A stretch of DNA of 64,000 nucleotides from Burkholderia savannae. GTDB lineage: Bacteria; Pseudomonadota; Gammaproteobacteria; Burkholderiales; Burkholderiaceae. A model generated the notes under the pieces. It searched no databases and was not told where the DNA came from. It worked only from the letters and a program-made list of their open reading frames with translations. Below are positions 35,173 to 39,360 of the stretch, in pieces. A program made the position numbers and the translations under genes. Each line of letters opens with the position of its first letter. Position 1 is the first letter of the stretch. The stretch is from contig NZ_CP013418.1 of NCBI RefSeq assembly GCF_001524445.2, forward strand, positions 620,001 through 684,000, written 5' to 3'.

Positions 35173-37419
35173 TCAGTAGCGCGCGTTCAGCGTGACGAAC
35201 GCCGAGCGGCCCGGCGCGATCGACGCGTAGTGCGCCGGATACGCCTGATCGAAGTACGTGCGGTTGAACAGGTTGTTCACGTTCAGCCGGACGTCGAGCT
35301 TCTTGCTGATCCGGTACTGCGCCATCGCGTCGAAGCGCCAGTACGACGGCACGGCGCGCAGGTTCGCGGTGTCGCCGAACACCTTCGACATGTAGAACGC
35401 GCCGCCGCCGACCGTGAGCTTCGGCGTCACGTCGTAGTTCGTCCACAGCGTGAAGCTGTGCTTCGGCGTCTGCGGGAACTGGTGGCCGTTGTCGGCGGTG
35501 TTCTTGCCGTTGTCGCGCAGTTCGCTCTTCATGTACGTGTAGCCGCCGAACACCTGCCACGCGCGCGTGAGCTGCCCGGCGAAGCCGAGTTCGAGCCCCT
35601 GCACGCGCTTGTCGCCGACCATCGCGTACTGGTCGTTCGGCAGCGTGACGCGCGCGTTCGTCGTGTCGATCTGGAAGAGGGCGGCCGTGAGCGAGAGCTT
35701 GTCGTCGAGCACGTTCCACTTCGTGCCGAGTTCGATGCTGCGGTTCTTCTCCGGCGCGAGCTGGTCGGCGTTCGAGCCGACGCCGCCGCGGCCCGGCGTG
35801 AGCGACTGCGTCTCCGAGCCTTCGCCGAGCAGCATGCCGGCGGGCGTCGACGACGTCGCGTACGACGCATAGATGCTGCCGTTCTGCGCGGGCTTGAACA
35901 CGAGGCCGAGCTGCCAGTTGAAGAGCGTGTCGTCGCGCGTGTAGGTCTTGCCGCCGTTCGCGCGGGTGTCGGTGAAGCGGGTCGAGTAGTCGTCGAGACG
36001 CACGCCGGCGTTCACCTGCCAACGCTTGCTGAGCTCGATCGTGTCGAAGCCGTAGATCGATTTCGTGACGGTGCGCGCGTGCGCGTAGTCGTTGTTGCGC
36101 GTGATCGAGCCCGTCCACGGATCGTTCGGGTTCGGCGACCACAGGCTCGTGCAGTTGTAGCCCGACGCGGCGCCGATCCCTTGCTGGCAGATCTTGCCGG
36201 TGCCCGTCGCGACGGTGTACGTGTCGCGCTTGCCCCATTCGCGCGACAGCTCGATGCCCGTCGTGAAGCTGTGCTTGAACGGGCCGGTGCGGAATTCGCC
36301 GAACAGCTCGGTCAGGTTCGCGATGCTGTTGATCGAGCTGTTGCGATTGTTGTTGCGCCGCCAGACACGGCCGTTGATCACGTTGCCCTGGCTGTCGTCG
36401 GGCTGCGTCCAGATGTAGTCCTGCGTCGATTCCGTGTAGCGCGTCGTGTTGCGGATCGTCAGCGACGGCGTGATGTCGTGCTCGATCTTGAGCGTGCTGA
36501 TGTCCGACGTCGTCTTGCGGAAGTCGCGGTCGATCAGGCCGTAGAAGTTGTGGCGGTCGACGTTGGCCGGATAGATCGTGTCGACGTTCGCCGGCTTGTT
36601 CGAGCTCGTGTAGAAGTACGGAATGCCGCTATCGGGCAGGTCGTCGGTCGACAGGTGGTAGTAGCTCGCGGTCACGCGCGTCGGCGTGCCGAGACCGAAC
36701 GCGATCGACGGCGCGACGCCCCAGCGCTCGTTGTTGACGGCGTCGCGGCCGGCGACGTCGTTGTTGTGGCTCATCAGGTTCAGGCGAAACGCCGCGTGAT
36801 CGGCGAACTGCCAGTTGCCGTCGGCGGTGAAGCGGCGGTAGCGGTCGGTGCCGAGGCCCGCGCTCGCTTCGGCCGTCGTGCCGAGGTGCGGCGCCTTCGT
36901 GACGAGATTGACGCTGCCGCCCGCGCCGCCGCGGCCGCCGTACGCGCCGTCCGAGCCCTTCGTGATTTCGACGCGCTCGGTGTTGAAGATCTCGCGCGTC
37001 GTCGCGCCCGTGTCGCGCATGCCGTCGACGAAGATGCTGCCTTGCGTGTCGTAGCCGCGGATGAACGGGCGATCGCCGAGCGGGTTGCCGCCTTCGCCCG
37101 CGCCGAACGTGATGCCGGGCACCGTGCGCAGCGCTTCGGTGAGCGTCGCCGCGCCGCTGTTCTGGATCAGCGCCTGCGGGATCACGGTGACGGACTTCGG
37201 CGTGTCGACGAGCGGAGCGGTGAATTTCGCCGACGAGGAAAAGTCGGCCTTGTAGCTGTGCTCGGCGGCGCCCTTGACCTGGATCGGCGCGAGTTCCTTG
37301 TCGTGATCGGCGGTCGCGGCGGGCGGCGCGGCGTCCTGCGCGAACGCAGGGCTCGCGGCGAGCACGCCGCAAAGGGTGGTGAATTTTCCGAGCTTCAACT
37401 CGTCGGAACGCGGCTTCAT
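35173..37419 (-). CDS. fiu: TonB-dependent siderophore receptor (Fiu/PiuA-like)
   Basis: The 748-residue outer-membrane protein has a signal peptide (about 1-27, ending SPAFAQ). The plug domain includes TPKSVTVIPQALIQNSGAATLTEAL and RPFIRGYD, and a 22-strand barrel closes with the terminal aromatic segment FVTLNARY. This matches receptors for catecholate siderophores such as Fiu and PiuA, which also admit siderophore-linked beta-lactams. The ATG at 37419 starts the signal peptide. The Sel1 and piuC genes follow at once. Likely Fur-repressed; a Fur-like site is marked upstream. Confidence 0.92.
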   Translation of the reverse strand: MKPRSDELKLGKFTTLCGVLAASPAFAQDAAPPAATADHDKELAPIQVKGAAEHSYKADFSSSAKFTAPLVDTPKSVTVIPQALIQNSGAATLTEALRTVPGITFGAGEGGNPLGDRPFIRGYDTQGSIFVDGMRDTGATTREIFNTERVEITKGSDGAYGGRGGAGGSVNLVTKAPHLGTTAEASAGLGTDRYRRFTADGNWQFADHAAFRLNLMSHNNDVAGRDAVNNERWGVAPSIAFGLGTPTRVTASYYHLSTDDLPDSGIPYFYTSSNKPANVDTIYPANVDRHNFYGLIDRDFRKTTSDISTLKIEHDITPSLTIRNTTRYTESTQDYIWTQPDDSQGNVINGRVWRRNNNRNSSINSIANLTELFGEFRTGPFKHSFTTGIELSREWGKRDTYTVATGTGKICQQGIGAASGYNCTSLWSPNPNDPWTGSITRNNDYAHARTVTKSIYGFDTIELSKRWQVNAGVRLDDYSTRFTDTRANGGKTYTRDDTLFNWQLGLVFKPAQNGSIYASYATSSTPAGMLLGEGSETQSLTPGRGGVGSNADQLAPEKNRSIELGTKWNVLDDKLSLTAALFQIDTTNARVTLPNDQYAMVGDKRVQGLELGFAGQLTRAWQVFGGYTYMKSELRDNGKNTADNGHQFPQTPKHSFTLWTNYDVTPKLTVGGGAFYMSKVFGDTANLRAVPSYWRFDAMAQYRISKKLDVRLNVNNLFNRTYFDQAYPAHYASIAPGRSAFVTLNARY

Positions 37420-37534
37420 CAGTGGTATTTCCTCGCCAGATGTGACTCGATCGGGCGAAGCAACCGCCGGTGCGCGACGCACCCCACCCGAATATTACAA
37501 ATTGTTTTCGGGCGCCATTTTAGTGAATATTTTT

Positions 37535-37660: not shown

Positions 37661-38956
37661 TCAGTCGATTCCGTGGAACGTCGCGTCCTCGGGCCCGAGA
37701 TACGCGGGCGGGCGCCAGGTCGCGTCGCGCATCGAGTGCTGGACCAGATGCTCGACGCCGAGCAGCACCGCGAAGATCGCCATGCGCACCGGAATCCCGT
37801 TGTCGGTCTGGCGGAAGATCGCGAGGCGCGGGTCGCGGTTCAGGTCGGTCGACAAGTCGTTCGCGCCCGGGCGGCTGTCGCGCGGCAGCGGGTGCATGAT
37901 CAGCGTGTCGCGGCCGCACGCGGTGTCGACGAGCGCCTGGTTGATCTGGAAATCCGGCGTGTAGCCTTCGAACGATTCGTCGGTGAAGCGCTCCTTCTGG
38001 ATTCGCGTCGCGTAGACGACGTCCGCGCCCTTCAGGCCCGCCGCGAGGTCGTGCGTCTCCTCGACCACGTGGCCGTTCTTCGAGATCTGATCGACGATGT
38101 ACGCGGGCATTTCGAGCGTCGGCGGCGACACGAGCGTGAACTTGAGCCCGCGATACAGCGCGAGCAGCTTGACGAGCGAGTGAACGGTGCGCCCGTACTT
38201 CAGATCGCCGACGAGCGCGATGTGCGCGCCGTCGACGATCTTGCCGAGCCGCGAGAATTCGCGCTGGATCGTGTACAGGTCGAGGAGCGCCTGGCTCGGA
38301 TGCTCGCCGGGGCCGTCGCCGCCGTTGATCACGGGCAGGTTGATCGCGCGCGCGAACTCGGCGACGGAGCCTTGCTCGGGGTGGCGGATCACGAGCGCGT
38401 CGACGTAGCCTGCCATCACGCGGCTCGTGTCGTAGATCGATTCGCCTTTCGCCATCGACGAGAACGTGAAGCCCGTCGTGTCGCACACCGAGCCGCCGAG
38501 CCGGCAGAACGCGGCGCCGAACGATACGCGCGTGCGCGTGCTCGCCTCGAAGAACAGATTGCCGAGCACCGCGCCCTCGAGCACGCGCGAAATCTTGCGG
38601 CGGCGGGCGATCGGCTGCATCACGTCGGCGACCCGAAAGAGCGCCTCGACCGAGTCGCGCGAGAACTGGTCGACCGACAGCAGTTGCGGCTTGCCTTCGA
38701 ACAGAAACTGGCTTGCGAGCGGCGGCGGAGCATCTACGCGATGCGTATAGACTTCGGCGGATTCCGGGCGCGCGACGATCTCGGAGACGAAGCGCTCGAC
38801 GATTTCTGGCATCCCGCGAGATTCCTGCGAATCGTCGGGCAAAAGCCATGTGTCGAGTGCGCGGCGGCTAATGCCGATGCGGTTCGCGAACGCGTCGCGG
38901 GTCATGTTGAGGCGGCGCATCGCGTCGCGCAGGAACGCTTGTTGAGGAACGGTCAT
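37661..38956 (-). CDS. pyrB: Aspartate carbamoyltransferase fused to an N-terminal HTH domain
   Basis: The 431-residue protein would make carbamoyl-aspartate for pyrimidine synthesis. Catalytic motifs are complete: STRTR at 139-143, Lys170 of the mobile loop (SSMAKGES), HPSQ at 219-222, DLKYGRTVHSL at 251-261 and MHPLPRDS at 354-361. Uniquely, residues 1-66 form a Cro/XRE-like helix-turn-helix domain (FLRDAMRRLNMTRDAFANRI, then SRRALDTWLLP). E. coli PyrB is about 311 residues and lacks this. No pyrI gene is adjacent. A 15-bp palindrome overlaps the promoter and a 14-bp match lies in the linker codons, suggesting that the enzyme binds its own gene. That last point is inference. Confidence 0.93.
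   Translation of the reverse strand: MTVPQQAFLRDAMRRLNMTRDAFANRIGISRRALDTWLLPDDSQESRGMPEIVERFVSEIVARPESAEVYTHRVDAPPPLASQFLFEGKPQLLSVDQFSRDSVEALFRVADVMQPIARRRKISRVLEGAVLGNLFFEASTRTRVSFGAAFCRLGGSVCDTTGFTFSSMAKGESIYDTSRVMAGYVDALVIRHPEQGSVAEFARAINLPVINGGDGPGEHPSQALLDLYTIQREFSRLGKIVDGAHIALVGDLKYGRTVHSLVKLLALYRGLKFTLVSPPTLEMPAYIVDQISKNGHVVEETHDLAAGLKGADVVYATRIQKERFTDESFEGYTPDFQINQALVDTACGRDTLIMHPLPRDSRPGANDLSTDLNRDPRLAIFRQTDNGIPVRMAIFAVLLGVEHLVQHSMRDATWRPPAYLGPEDATFHGID
38735..38748. promoter_or_regulatory. In-gene copy of the pyrB palindrome
   Basis: TACGCGATGCGTAT here is identical to the core of the promoter palindrome 248 bp away. It falls in codons 69-74 (VYTHRV), exactly between the HTH and the catalytic domain. 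Confidence 0.6.
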
Positions 38957-38977
38957 CAGTCGGCTCGGCTCTCTAAA

Positions 38978-39010
38978 ATATACGCGATGCGTATGGTAGG
39001 TCGACAGCGG
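38978..39010 (-). promoter_or_regulatory. pyrB promoter with overlapping 15-bp palindrome
   Basis: On the minus strand TATATT (38978-38983) fits a -10 box, with TCGACC 16 bp upstream as a weak -35. The perfect inverted repeat ATACGC-GAT-GCGTAT (38982-38996) sits between them and overlaps the -10, about 26 bp before the pyrB ATG. This is a classic position for a repressor site. Confidence 0.6.
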
Positions 39011-39225
39011 CCGAAGTCAAGCGGAAAATGCGAACGAGTTGACGGATGACGGACGGCGGCGCGGCGCACGAAGCCGCCGTACGAGCCGCAACACGTTTAA
39101 CAATTGCTTTGCCCCGTGCGGCGCGGCCCGTCCGTATAATCGGGACCAGTCCCCGCGCCTTGGCGCGGGCGGATTCGGATACGTCGGTCGCACGCCAAGC
39201 GCCCGCATTGACAAGGAGAGTGAGA

Positions 39226-39360
39226 ATGAACCGCGCGATTGCCGCCGCCCTGCTGATCCTGACCGCCGCGCTTGCCGGCTGCAACACGATCGCGGGCGTC
39301 GGCCAGGACATTTCGAAGGGCGGCCAGGCGATCTCGGATACGGCCGAGAAGGCGAAGTAA
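39226..39360 (+). CDS. ecnB: Entericidin-like small lipoprotein
   Basis: The 44-residue precursor has a lipoprotein signal (MNRAIAAALLILTAALAGC, with the lipobox LAGC). The mature peptide NTIAGVGQDISKGGQAISD is followed by a Lys-rich end. This is the entericidin A/B pattern. Entericidins are stress-linked, membrane-active lipopeptides studied in toxin/antidote pairs; only one is present here. AAGGAG is placed before the ATG at 39226, and a strong hairpin follows at 39413. It is a single gene, divergent from pyrB. Confidence 0.88.
   Translation: MNRAIAAALLILTAALAGCNTIAGVGQDISKGGQAISDTAEKAK

Follow-up and report, generated by a model that had tools for sequence, protein, structure and literature searches.

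A helix-turn-helix-fused aspartate carbamoyltransferase as a candidate repressor of its own gene in Burkholderiales

Can an enzyme of pyrimidine synthesis also serve as the transcriptional repressor of the gene that encodes it? The question arises from a locus of Burkholderia savannae, within a window of 64,000 nucleotides (the whole stretch of DNA analysed here, from contig NZ_CP013418.1), where an aspartate carbamoyltransferase (ATCase) gene encodes an additional N-terminal helix-turn-helix (HTH) domain and is accompanied by two copies of a 15-bp palindrome, one at its promoter and one inside its own codons. ATCase is a classic example of an allosteric enzyme, and the control of its expression and of its activity usually falls to separate parts. 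From the conservation of these elements across relatives, we consider it quite likely that the HTH-ATCase is both a biosynthetic enzyme and its own transcriptional repressor, namely a trigger enzyme acting at operators of its own gene. If true, sensor, enzyme and repressor would be united in one polypeptide and, given a second operator within the enzyme's own codons, one stretch of DNA would be under double selection.

The HTH-ATCase and the palindrome at its promoter

The original prediction of a complete ATCase with an extra N-terminal HTH domain is borne out by the open reading frame, Pfam, NF008853 and structure prediction, which agree on the following layout.

37661 to 38956, minus strand: HTH-ATCase coding sequence, 431 amino acids, ATG start; full-length NF008853 match at 878.3 bits against 560.
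37664 to 38686, minus strand: ATCase catalytic part, residues 91-431 (Pfam 92-231 and 243-397), with STRTR, SSMAKGE, HPSQ, TRIQ and HPLPR aligned with solved ATCases.
38687 to 38770, minus strand: variable linker, residues 63-90, between the HTH domain and the catalytic part.
38771 to 38956, minus strand: predicted N-terminal HTH domain, residues 1-62; AlphaFold2 helices 4-16, 20-27, 31-37 and 51-62, mean predicted local distance difference test (pLDDT) score 83.6.

Both OTCace_N (PF02729) and OTCace (PF00185) score over their Pfam cut-offs in the 431-residue protein, the active-site motifs of which align with those of solved ATCases. Residues 1-431 match positions 1-430 of the NCBIfam model NF008853/PRK11891, N-terminus included; the window gene is a full-length member of this family, whose description names the enzyme only and no DNA-binding role. 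We take the protein to be an aspartate carbamoyltransferase on these domains and motifs, with a catalytic activity suggested by genomes, described below, in which it is the sole ATCase. A full-length AlphaFold2 model was weak (mean pLDDT 67.5, shallow alignment) and was not used for the catalytic part.

Upstream of the gene, the promoter and the first palindrome are arranged as follows.

38980 to 38994, no strand: putative promoter operator, half-sites ATACGC and GCGTAT around GAT; an exact palindrome, conserved.
38993 to 38998, minus strand: predicted -10 element TACCAT (TAATAT in 72/81 Burkholderia-group genes).
39015 to 39020, minus strand: predicted -35 element TTGACT, 16-bp spacer.

The 15-bp palindrome ATACGCGATGCGTAT (half-site AT[A/G]CGC, 3-bp spacer) is exact at 38980-38994, which corresponds to -38 to -24 relative to the ATG. 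It had been expected to overlap the -10 region 26 bp before the start; the overlap held up, but the gap between site and ATG is 23 bases. We compared the window gene with loci from named genomes, taking the best 80 of 515 (proteins 89-94% identical). Throughout the 81 Burkholderia-group genes, TTGACT with at most one mismatch is followed by a 16-bp spacer and a -10-like hexamer, and the palindrome begins on the last two bases of that hexamer. Mismatches to the promoter site number 0, 1 and 2 in 52, 27 and 2 of these genes, respectively.

Sampling was then widened to the order, where 45 of 300 genomes gave a match (17 over the cut-off), and to four further family samples with matches in 109 of 151, 8 of 97, 2 of 10 and 5 of 28 genomes; for family f4, 92 of the 109 matches were examined. 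The full set comprises 185 genes with an intact HTH domain, drawn from six Burkholderiales families. Mismatches over the 12 half-site positions number 0, 1, 2 and 3 in 87, 84, 12 and 2 of these genes, so that 171 of the 185 have 0 or 1, whereas among shuffled upstream regions (n = 3,700) none has 0 and 0.05% have 1. In f4 and the remaining families, where the flanking sequence has diverged, the information content is highest at the palindrome plus a few adjoining bases. The sites were scored with a position weight matrix at a strict threshold of 1 in 10,000 positions of control sequence (matrix score 11.9). Lack of conservation in species carrying the fusion had been named in advance as grounds for abandoning the proposal; the promoter site instead exceeds the strict threshold in 184 of the 185 intact-HTH genes.

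Since both sites are inverted repeats, they might be thought to act in RNA, as a hairpin or an attenuator. The promoter copy, however, starts on the -10 element, which would leave its first part untranscribed, and the pairing is disrupted by common substitutions such as GCGTAC; an action in RNA is scarcely credible.

A second palindrome within the linker codons

38734 to 38748, no strand: putative in-gene operator in the linker codons Y-T-H-R-V (mostly Y-T-Q-S-V in relatives), at a fixed place and with codon choice fixed at the DNA level.

A second copy, identical over 14 bp, had been proposed in the linker codons, 248 bp from the first. A copy with one mismatch to the exact palindrome is indeed present there, but the two sites lie 246 bp apart, start to start. 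Linker sequence varies among the 81 Burkholderia-group genes, but codon usage beneath the palindrome is fixed. Valine is encoded there by GTA in 79 of 79 cases, against 3.4% of valine codons elsewhere in the same genes; the corresponding figures are 75 of 75 for TAT among tyrosine codons (27.6% elsewhere), 75 of 77 for CAA among glutamine codons (20.7%) and 73 of 73 for AGC among serine codons (27.4%). Six changes of tyrosine to histidine (CAT) and eight of serine to arginine (CGC) preserve the bases of the palindrome. At the first codon past it the bias is relaxed, aspartate where present being written as GAT 37 times and as GAC 36 times. The fixation of rare synonyms inside the palindrome and its relaxation at the very next codon argue for selection on the DNA sequence of the in-gene site. 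A similar but weaker bias is present in f4, with GTA at 14 of 16 valines (7.5% elsewhere), GCA at 35 of 52 alanines (9.2%) and CAA at 58 of 79 glutamines (25.1%).

The peptide Y-T-Q-S-V is frequent in the linker, and its conservation as a peptide could in principle account for the site. We regard this as very improbable, since the fixation of rare codons is confined to the palindrome, the histidine and arginine substitutions keep its bases, and in five genes of family f23 a second promoter site stands in for the missing linker site. Judged from codon usage and alignment, the in-gene site is conserved at the DNA level, and both palindromes are under strong selection.

The linker site exceeds the strict threshold in 83 of 83 Burkholderia-group, 56 of 84 f4 and 12 of 18 other genes; at least two sites anywhere are found in 83 of 83, 56 of 84 and 17 of 18, or 156 of 185 overall. 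In the five f23 genes the two upstream sites are 45-46 bp apart. In three f4 genes (L119, L128 and L130) the main upstream site is accompanied, at a distance of 18 to 74 bp, by another that also passes the strict threshold. Over 148 genes, the promoter and linker sites are 232 to 281 bp apart.

The original prediction held that the in-gene site might be an old pyrB operator captured when a regulator gene fused to the enzyme. In 137 of 149 genes the linker site begins 59 nt ahead of the catalytic start motif, and the equivalent position before the start codons of unfused relatives is -41 (L107 and L108) or -53 (L157), which fits the capture geometry; for L155 and L156, both with the HTH domain lost secondarily, it is only -26 and -5, and the fit is thus a partial one. 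Rooting the tree does not decide whether the linker site is ancestral, the deepest fork within the family being supported at only 81/40. A fuller scheme, in which an ATCase trimer or hexamer senses substrates or nucleotides and its idle or inhibited form bridges two operators of the gene encoding it, is tentative, and we give it somewhat less than an even chance; in this scheme one operator would be a former promoter operator of the unfused ATCase, trapped by the fusion and preserved since then as DNA within the linker codons.

The candidate binder and its mode of action

Structure prediction of the N-terminus, proposed as a check on the HTH assignment, returned the four helices listed above in a predicted HTH fold. 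Among solved folds, Foldseek places this model closest to Aca1 bound to palindromic DNA and to HigA2, along with further DNA-binding HTH proteins, and we treat the domain as putatively XRE-like (lambda-repressor-like). Residues R/K31, R32, D35 and W37 are common to all 183 scored intact genes (two of the 185 were missed by the motif). When the HTH alignment was compared with the sequences of solved structures, a single meaningless match (E 0.47) came back. Stand-alone relatives of the domain were considered and rejected: a search gave 44 matches, and those that were read resemble fragments of this gene family, or starts of it with a frameshift, and gave no sign of a separate regulator family. 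Two such frames of 74-75 amino acids, P0152 and P0158, on contigs of 209,779 and 310,305 bases, read through the HTH domain, shift frame and end in N-I-R-K-A, which is the operator read in another frame; they are probably frameshifted genes.

The site follows the domain. All 13 distinct HTH-less relatives (three of family f14; G053, G431 and G332, L106 being the same gene as L157; and seven elsewhere in the class) lack the site over the 900 bases before the STRTR codons, with a best score of 6.4 against the threshold of 11.9. In genomes of about 0.8 Mb, five further genes retain the N-terminus with a decayed HTH domain, residues 31-32 (R/K plus R when intact) reading LH, KK, LC, LC and AN; none has the site (best score 3.3). 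In the tree G053, long-branched and unsure in its placement, stands apart from the small-genome group, and HTH domain and site may thus have been lost together more than once. The 0.7-0.9 Mb genomes of L155, L156 and L158-L162 retain an ATCase with the HTH domain lost or decayed, and no other ATCase was found in the five genomes of this group that were searched.

The original prediction had also called for a genome-wide search, and the exact palindrome occurs only once, at the ATCase promoter, in the 7.43-Mb B. savannae genome. Fifteen more places match with one mismatch, two of them in the window: the in-gene copy and a further place. The two sites of the window gene score 22.8 and 23.7, the other place in the window 8.3, and the 13 remaining one-mismatch places fetched from the genome 4 to 14. 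None of these 16 places, exact and one-mismatch together, lies within 60 kb of the canonical pyrB or pyrD. Two one-mismatch sites, G000:C1:220269 (L235) and G000:C1:2446948 (L238), have identical surroundings, suggesting a repeated element.

Neighbouring genes are not kept along with the site. Read by eye in the 80 loci, the neighbours are a TonB receptor (37 loci), a Sel1-repeat protein (33), a PKHD-type oxygenase (32) and an entericidin-like lipoprotein (31), with four others in 0 to 2, while the promoter site, at no more than two mismatches, is present in all 80. A neighbouring gene as the regulator was therefore rejected, the eight neighbours tested occurring in just 0 to 37 of the loci. 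Because the neighbours are unconserved with the site and the exact sequence occurs a single time, the fused HTH domain is the likely binder of the palindromes.

It is nonetheless conceivable that an unlinked regulator binds the palindromes and that the HTH domain serves another role, such as assembly. DNA binding by the domain is a prediction, with a Pfam score under the cut-off, and would leave room for such an arrangement. Set against it are the coupling of site and domain (184 of 185 intact-HTH genes with the promoter site, 0 of 13 HTH-less and 0 of 5 decayed), the unrepeated exact site in the B. savannae genome, as expected of an autoregulator, and the absence of a conserved neighbour; we consider an unlinked regulator unlikely.

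Binding by the fused domain suggests the following course of events. The N-terminal XRE-like HTH domain would bind the 15-bp palindrome, which extends from the last bases of the -10 element over the likely start point, and would so block initiation. The second copy, about 250 bp downstream in the linker codons, would also be bound in most relatives, through other HTH domains of the same oligomer, raising occupancy or blocking elongation. ATCase catalytic chains form trimers, so one oligomer would offer several HTH domains, which makes binding to two palindromes plausible. The state of the catalytic domain, set by substrate or nucleotide, might gate the binding. What comparison shows is that both sites are conserved, that the in-gene site is selected as DNA, that site and HTH domain are coupled and that the exact site is unique in the B. 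savannae genome; the HTH domain as binder, repression as the effect and gating by catalytic state are inferred.

An HTH-ATCase that acts as an activator, or that regulates further genes, would differ from a plain autorepressor. Further matching places exist, namely the one-mismatch places in the B. savannae genome and exact places besides the ATCase promoter in G255 (score 8.8), G300 (18.2) and G119 (22.9). However, overlap with the -10 element and the likely start point is the position of a repressor, the other one-mismatch places score just 4 to 14, and all 16 re-fetched places, those of other genomes included, sit inside open frames of at least 60 codons, a weak point in GC-rich DNA; none of the 16 places in the B. 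savannae genome is near pyrB or pyrD. The fusion-less genome G158 has the same exact site in a 330-amino-acid frame as G119 has. The same palindrome and spacer occur in these frames at G119:C55:89289 (L250, with the fusion) and G158:C85:84530 (L217, without it); this shared palindrome is probably a coding coincidence, and an extra target in G158 was rejected, the exact site lying inside the open frame. We judge activation or a wider regulon to be a little less probable even than an unlinked regulator.

Several observations weigh against autorepression by the HTH-ATCase. Related genomes are non-independent observations, and the matrix was trained on the promoter sites of the same gene set, window gene included. 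Searched alone, the N-terminus scores 15.7 bits against the Pfam HTH_3 cut-off of 23, and Foldseek gives no E-value better than 0.015. Small AT-rich genomes, which lose regulation generally, are the source of the decayed genes and of two HTH-less ones. The looser half-site pattern AT[A/G]CGC occurs at 12 places in the B. savannae genome, against 1 for the reversed control, and is thus not unique; of 22 genomes, 17 contain between 1 and 17 such places, and G158 has 7 places against 0 for the reversed control, so that the excess is not tied to the fusion. Finally, G119, which carries the fusion, has the further exact site scoring 22.9.

The number and spacing of sites add to these points. Only a single site is present in 28 of the 84 f4 genes (the promoter site in 27 and the linker site in one, L163), and L103 has, 30 bp from its first upstream site, another whose score of 11.85 narrowly misses the strict threshold of 11.9. 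A rule by which the absence of a linker site is made up by a second promoter site was rejected: it is true for the five f23 genes and nearly so for L103 but fails for the 28 f4 genes. At a 10.5-bp period the spacing shows no helical phasing, with a resultant length of 0.33 over the 148 genes and 0.16 over distinct spacings, which gives no support for rigid looping between the two sites and leaves a flexible tether, or a second site acting by local concentration or as a roadblock. Of the self-repression first proposed, the regulatory core thus gains from the conservation of site and fusion, the coupling to the HTH domain and the promoter position, while looping in a rigid form is unsupported by the spacing.

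Known trigger enzymes and the probable role in pyrimidine synthesis

How does such an enzyme compare with known systems? The DNA-binding domain of PutA is a ribbon-helix-helix. BirA and NadR carry an N-terminal HTH domain, their enzymes and targets differ from those of the HTH-ATCase, and we know of no operator inside the coding sequence of either. A second operator in a coding sequence, aiding repression at the promoter, is familiar from lac O2 inside lacZ; the lac repressor comes from a separate gene, whereas here the candidate repressor is fused to the ATCase. Aca1, the best fold match of the HTH domain and solved on palindromic DNA, is an anti-CRISPR-associated autorepressor, but it is a small stand-alone phage protein of 20-22% identity for which homology with the HTH domain is not established.

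Trigger enzymes as such are known. In the account given in PMC6978683, PutA of Salmonella, a proline dehydrogenase, represses its own put operon, and BirA is a biotin ligase that represses its pathway (bio) operon; PutA is likewise a metabolic enzyme acting on its own operon, though a different enzyme. Closer to pyrimidines, PepA and PyrH are trigger enzymes acting on E. coli carAB, an operon shared by pyrimidine synthesis, and the passages on them in PMC6245113 mention no fused HTH domain. Our literature search produced no paper that we recognized as describing a DNA-binding ATCase, and an autorepressing HTH-ATCase is not described in the literature searched, as far as the relevant passages of these sources go.

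Whether the fused enzyme makes pyrimidines at all is a separate question. The B. savannae genome has a second, canonical ATCase (P0165), 34% identical to the HTH-ATCase, which is not an ortholog of canonical PyrB by our comparison. Among 29 genomes searched with the canonical ATCase, a match of at least 73% identity was found in 13 (B. savannae itself, G285, G255, G119, G158, G031, G178, G007, G453, G535, G152, G297 and G188). A further copy is 43% identical to the canonical ATCase in G138 and G237, and one in G320 is 36% identical. In 11 others (G098, G300, G207, G339, G304, G341, G392, G431, G332, G053 and G194) the HTH-ATCase, or its HTH-less or decayed form, is the only ATCase found; the other match, 24-29% identical, is taken for an ornithine carbamoyltransferase (OTCase) by analogy with the OTCase of the B. 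savannae genome. All 11 genomes also carry PyrD, although in G332 it appears in two pieces. A sole ATCase alongside PyrD points to biosynthesis rather than catabolism, and in these 11 genomes the HTH-ATCase most likely makes pyrimidines. These genomes bear on a question raised in a 2015 review, on the function of the second, roughly 430-residue ATCase of Burkholderia and on whether one of the two ATCases is catabolic (PMC4581275).

Two genes flank the HTH-ATCase gene in the window. A TonB-dependent-receptor-like gene (35173-37482, minus strand) lies directly downstream, a neighbour seen in Burkholderia in 33 of its 37 loci, and a small entericidin-like lipoprotein gene (39226-39360, plus strand) is divergent from the ATCase gene.
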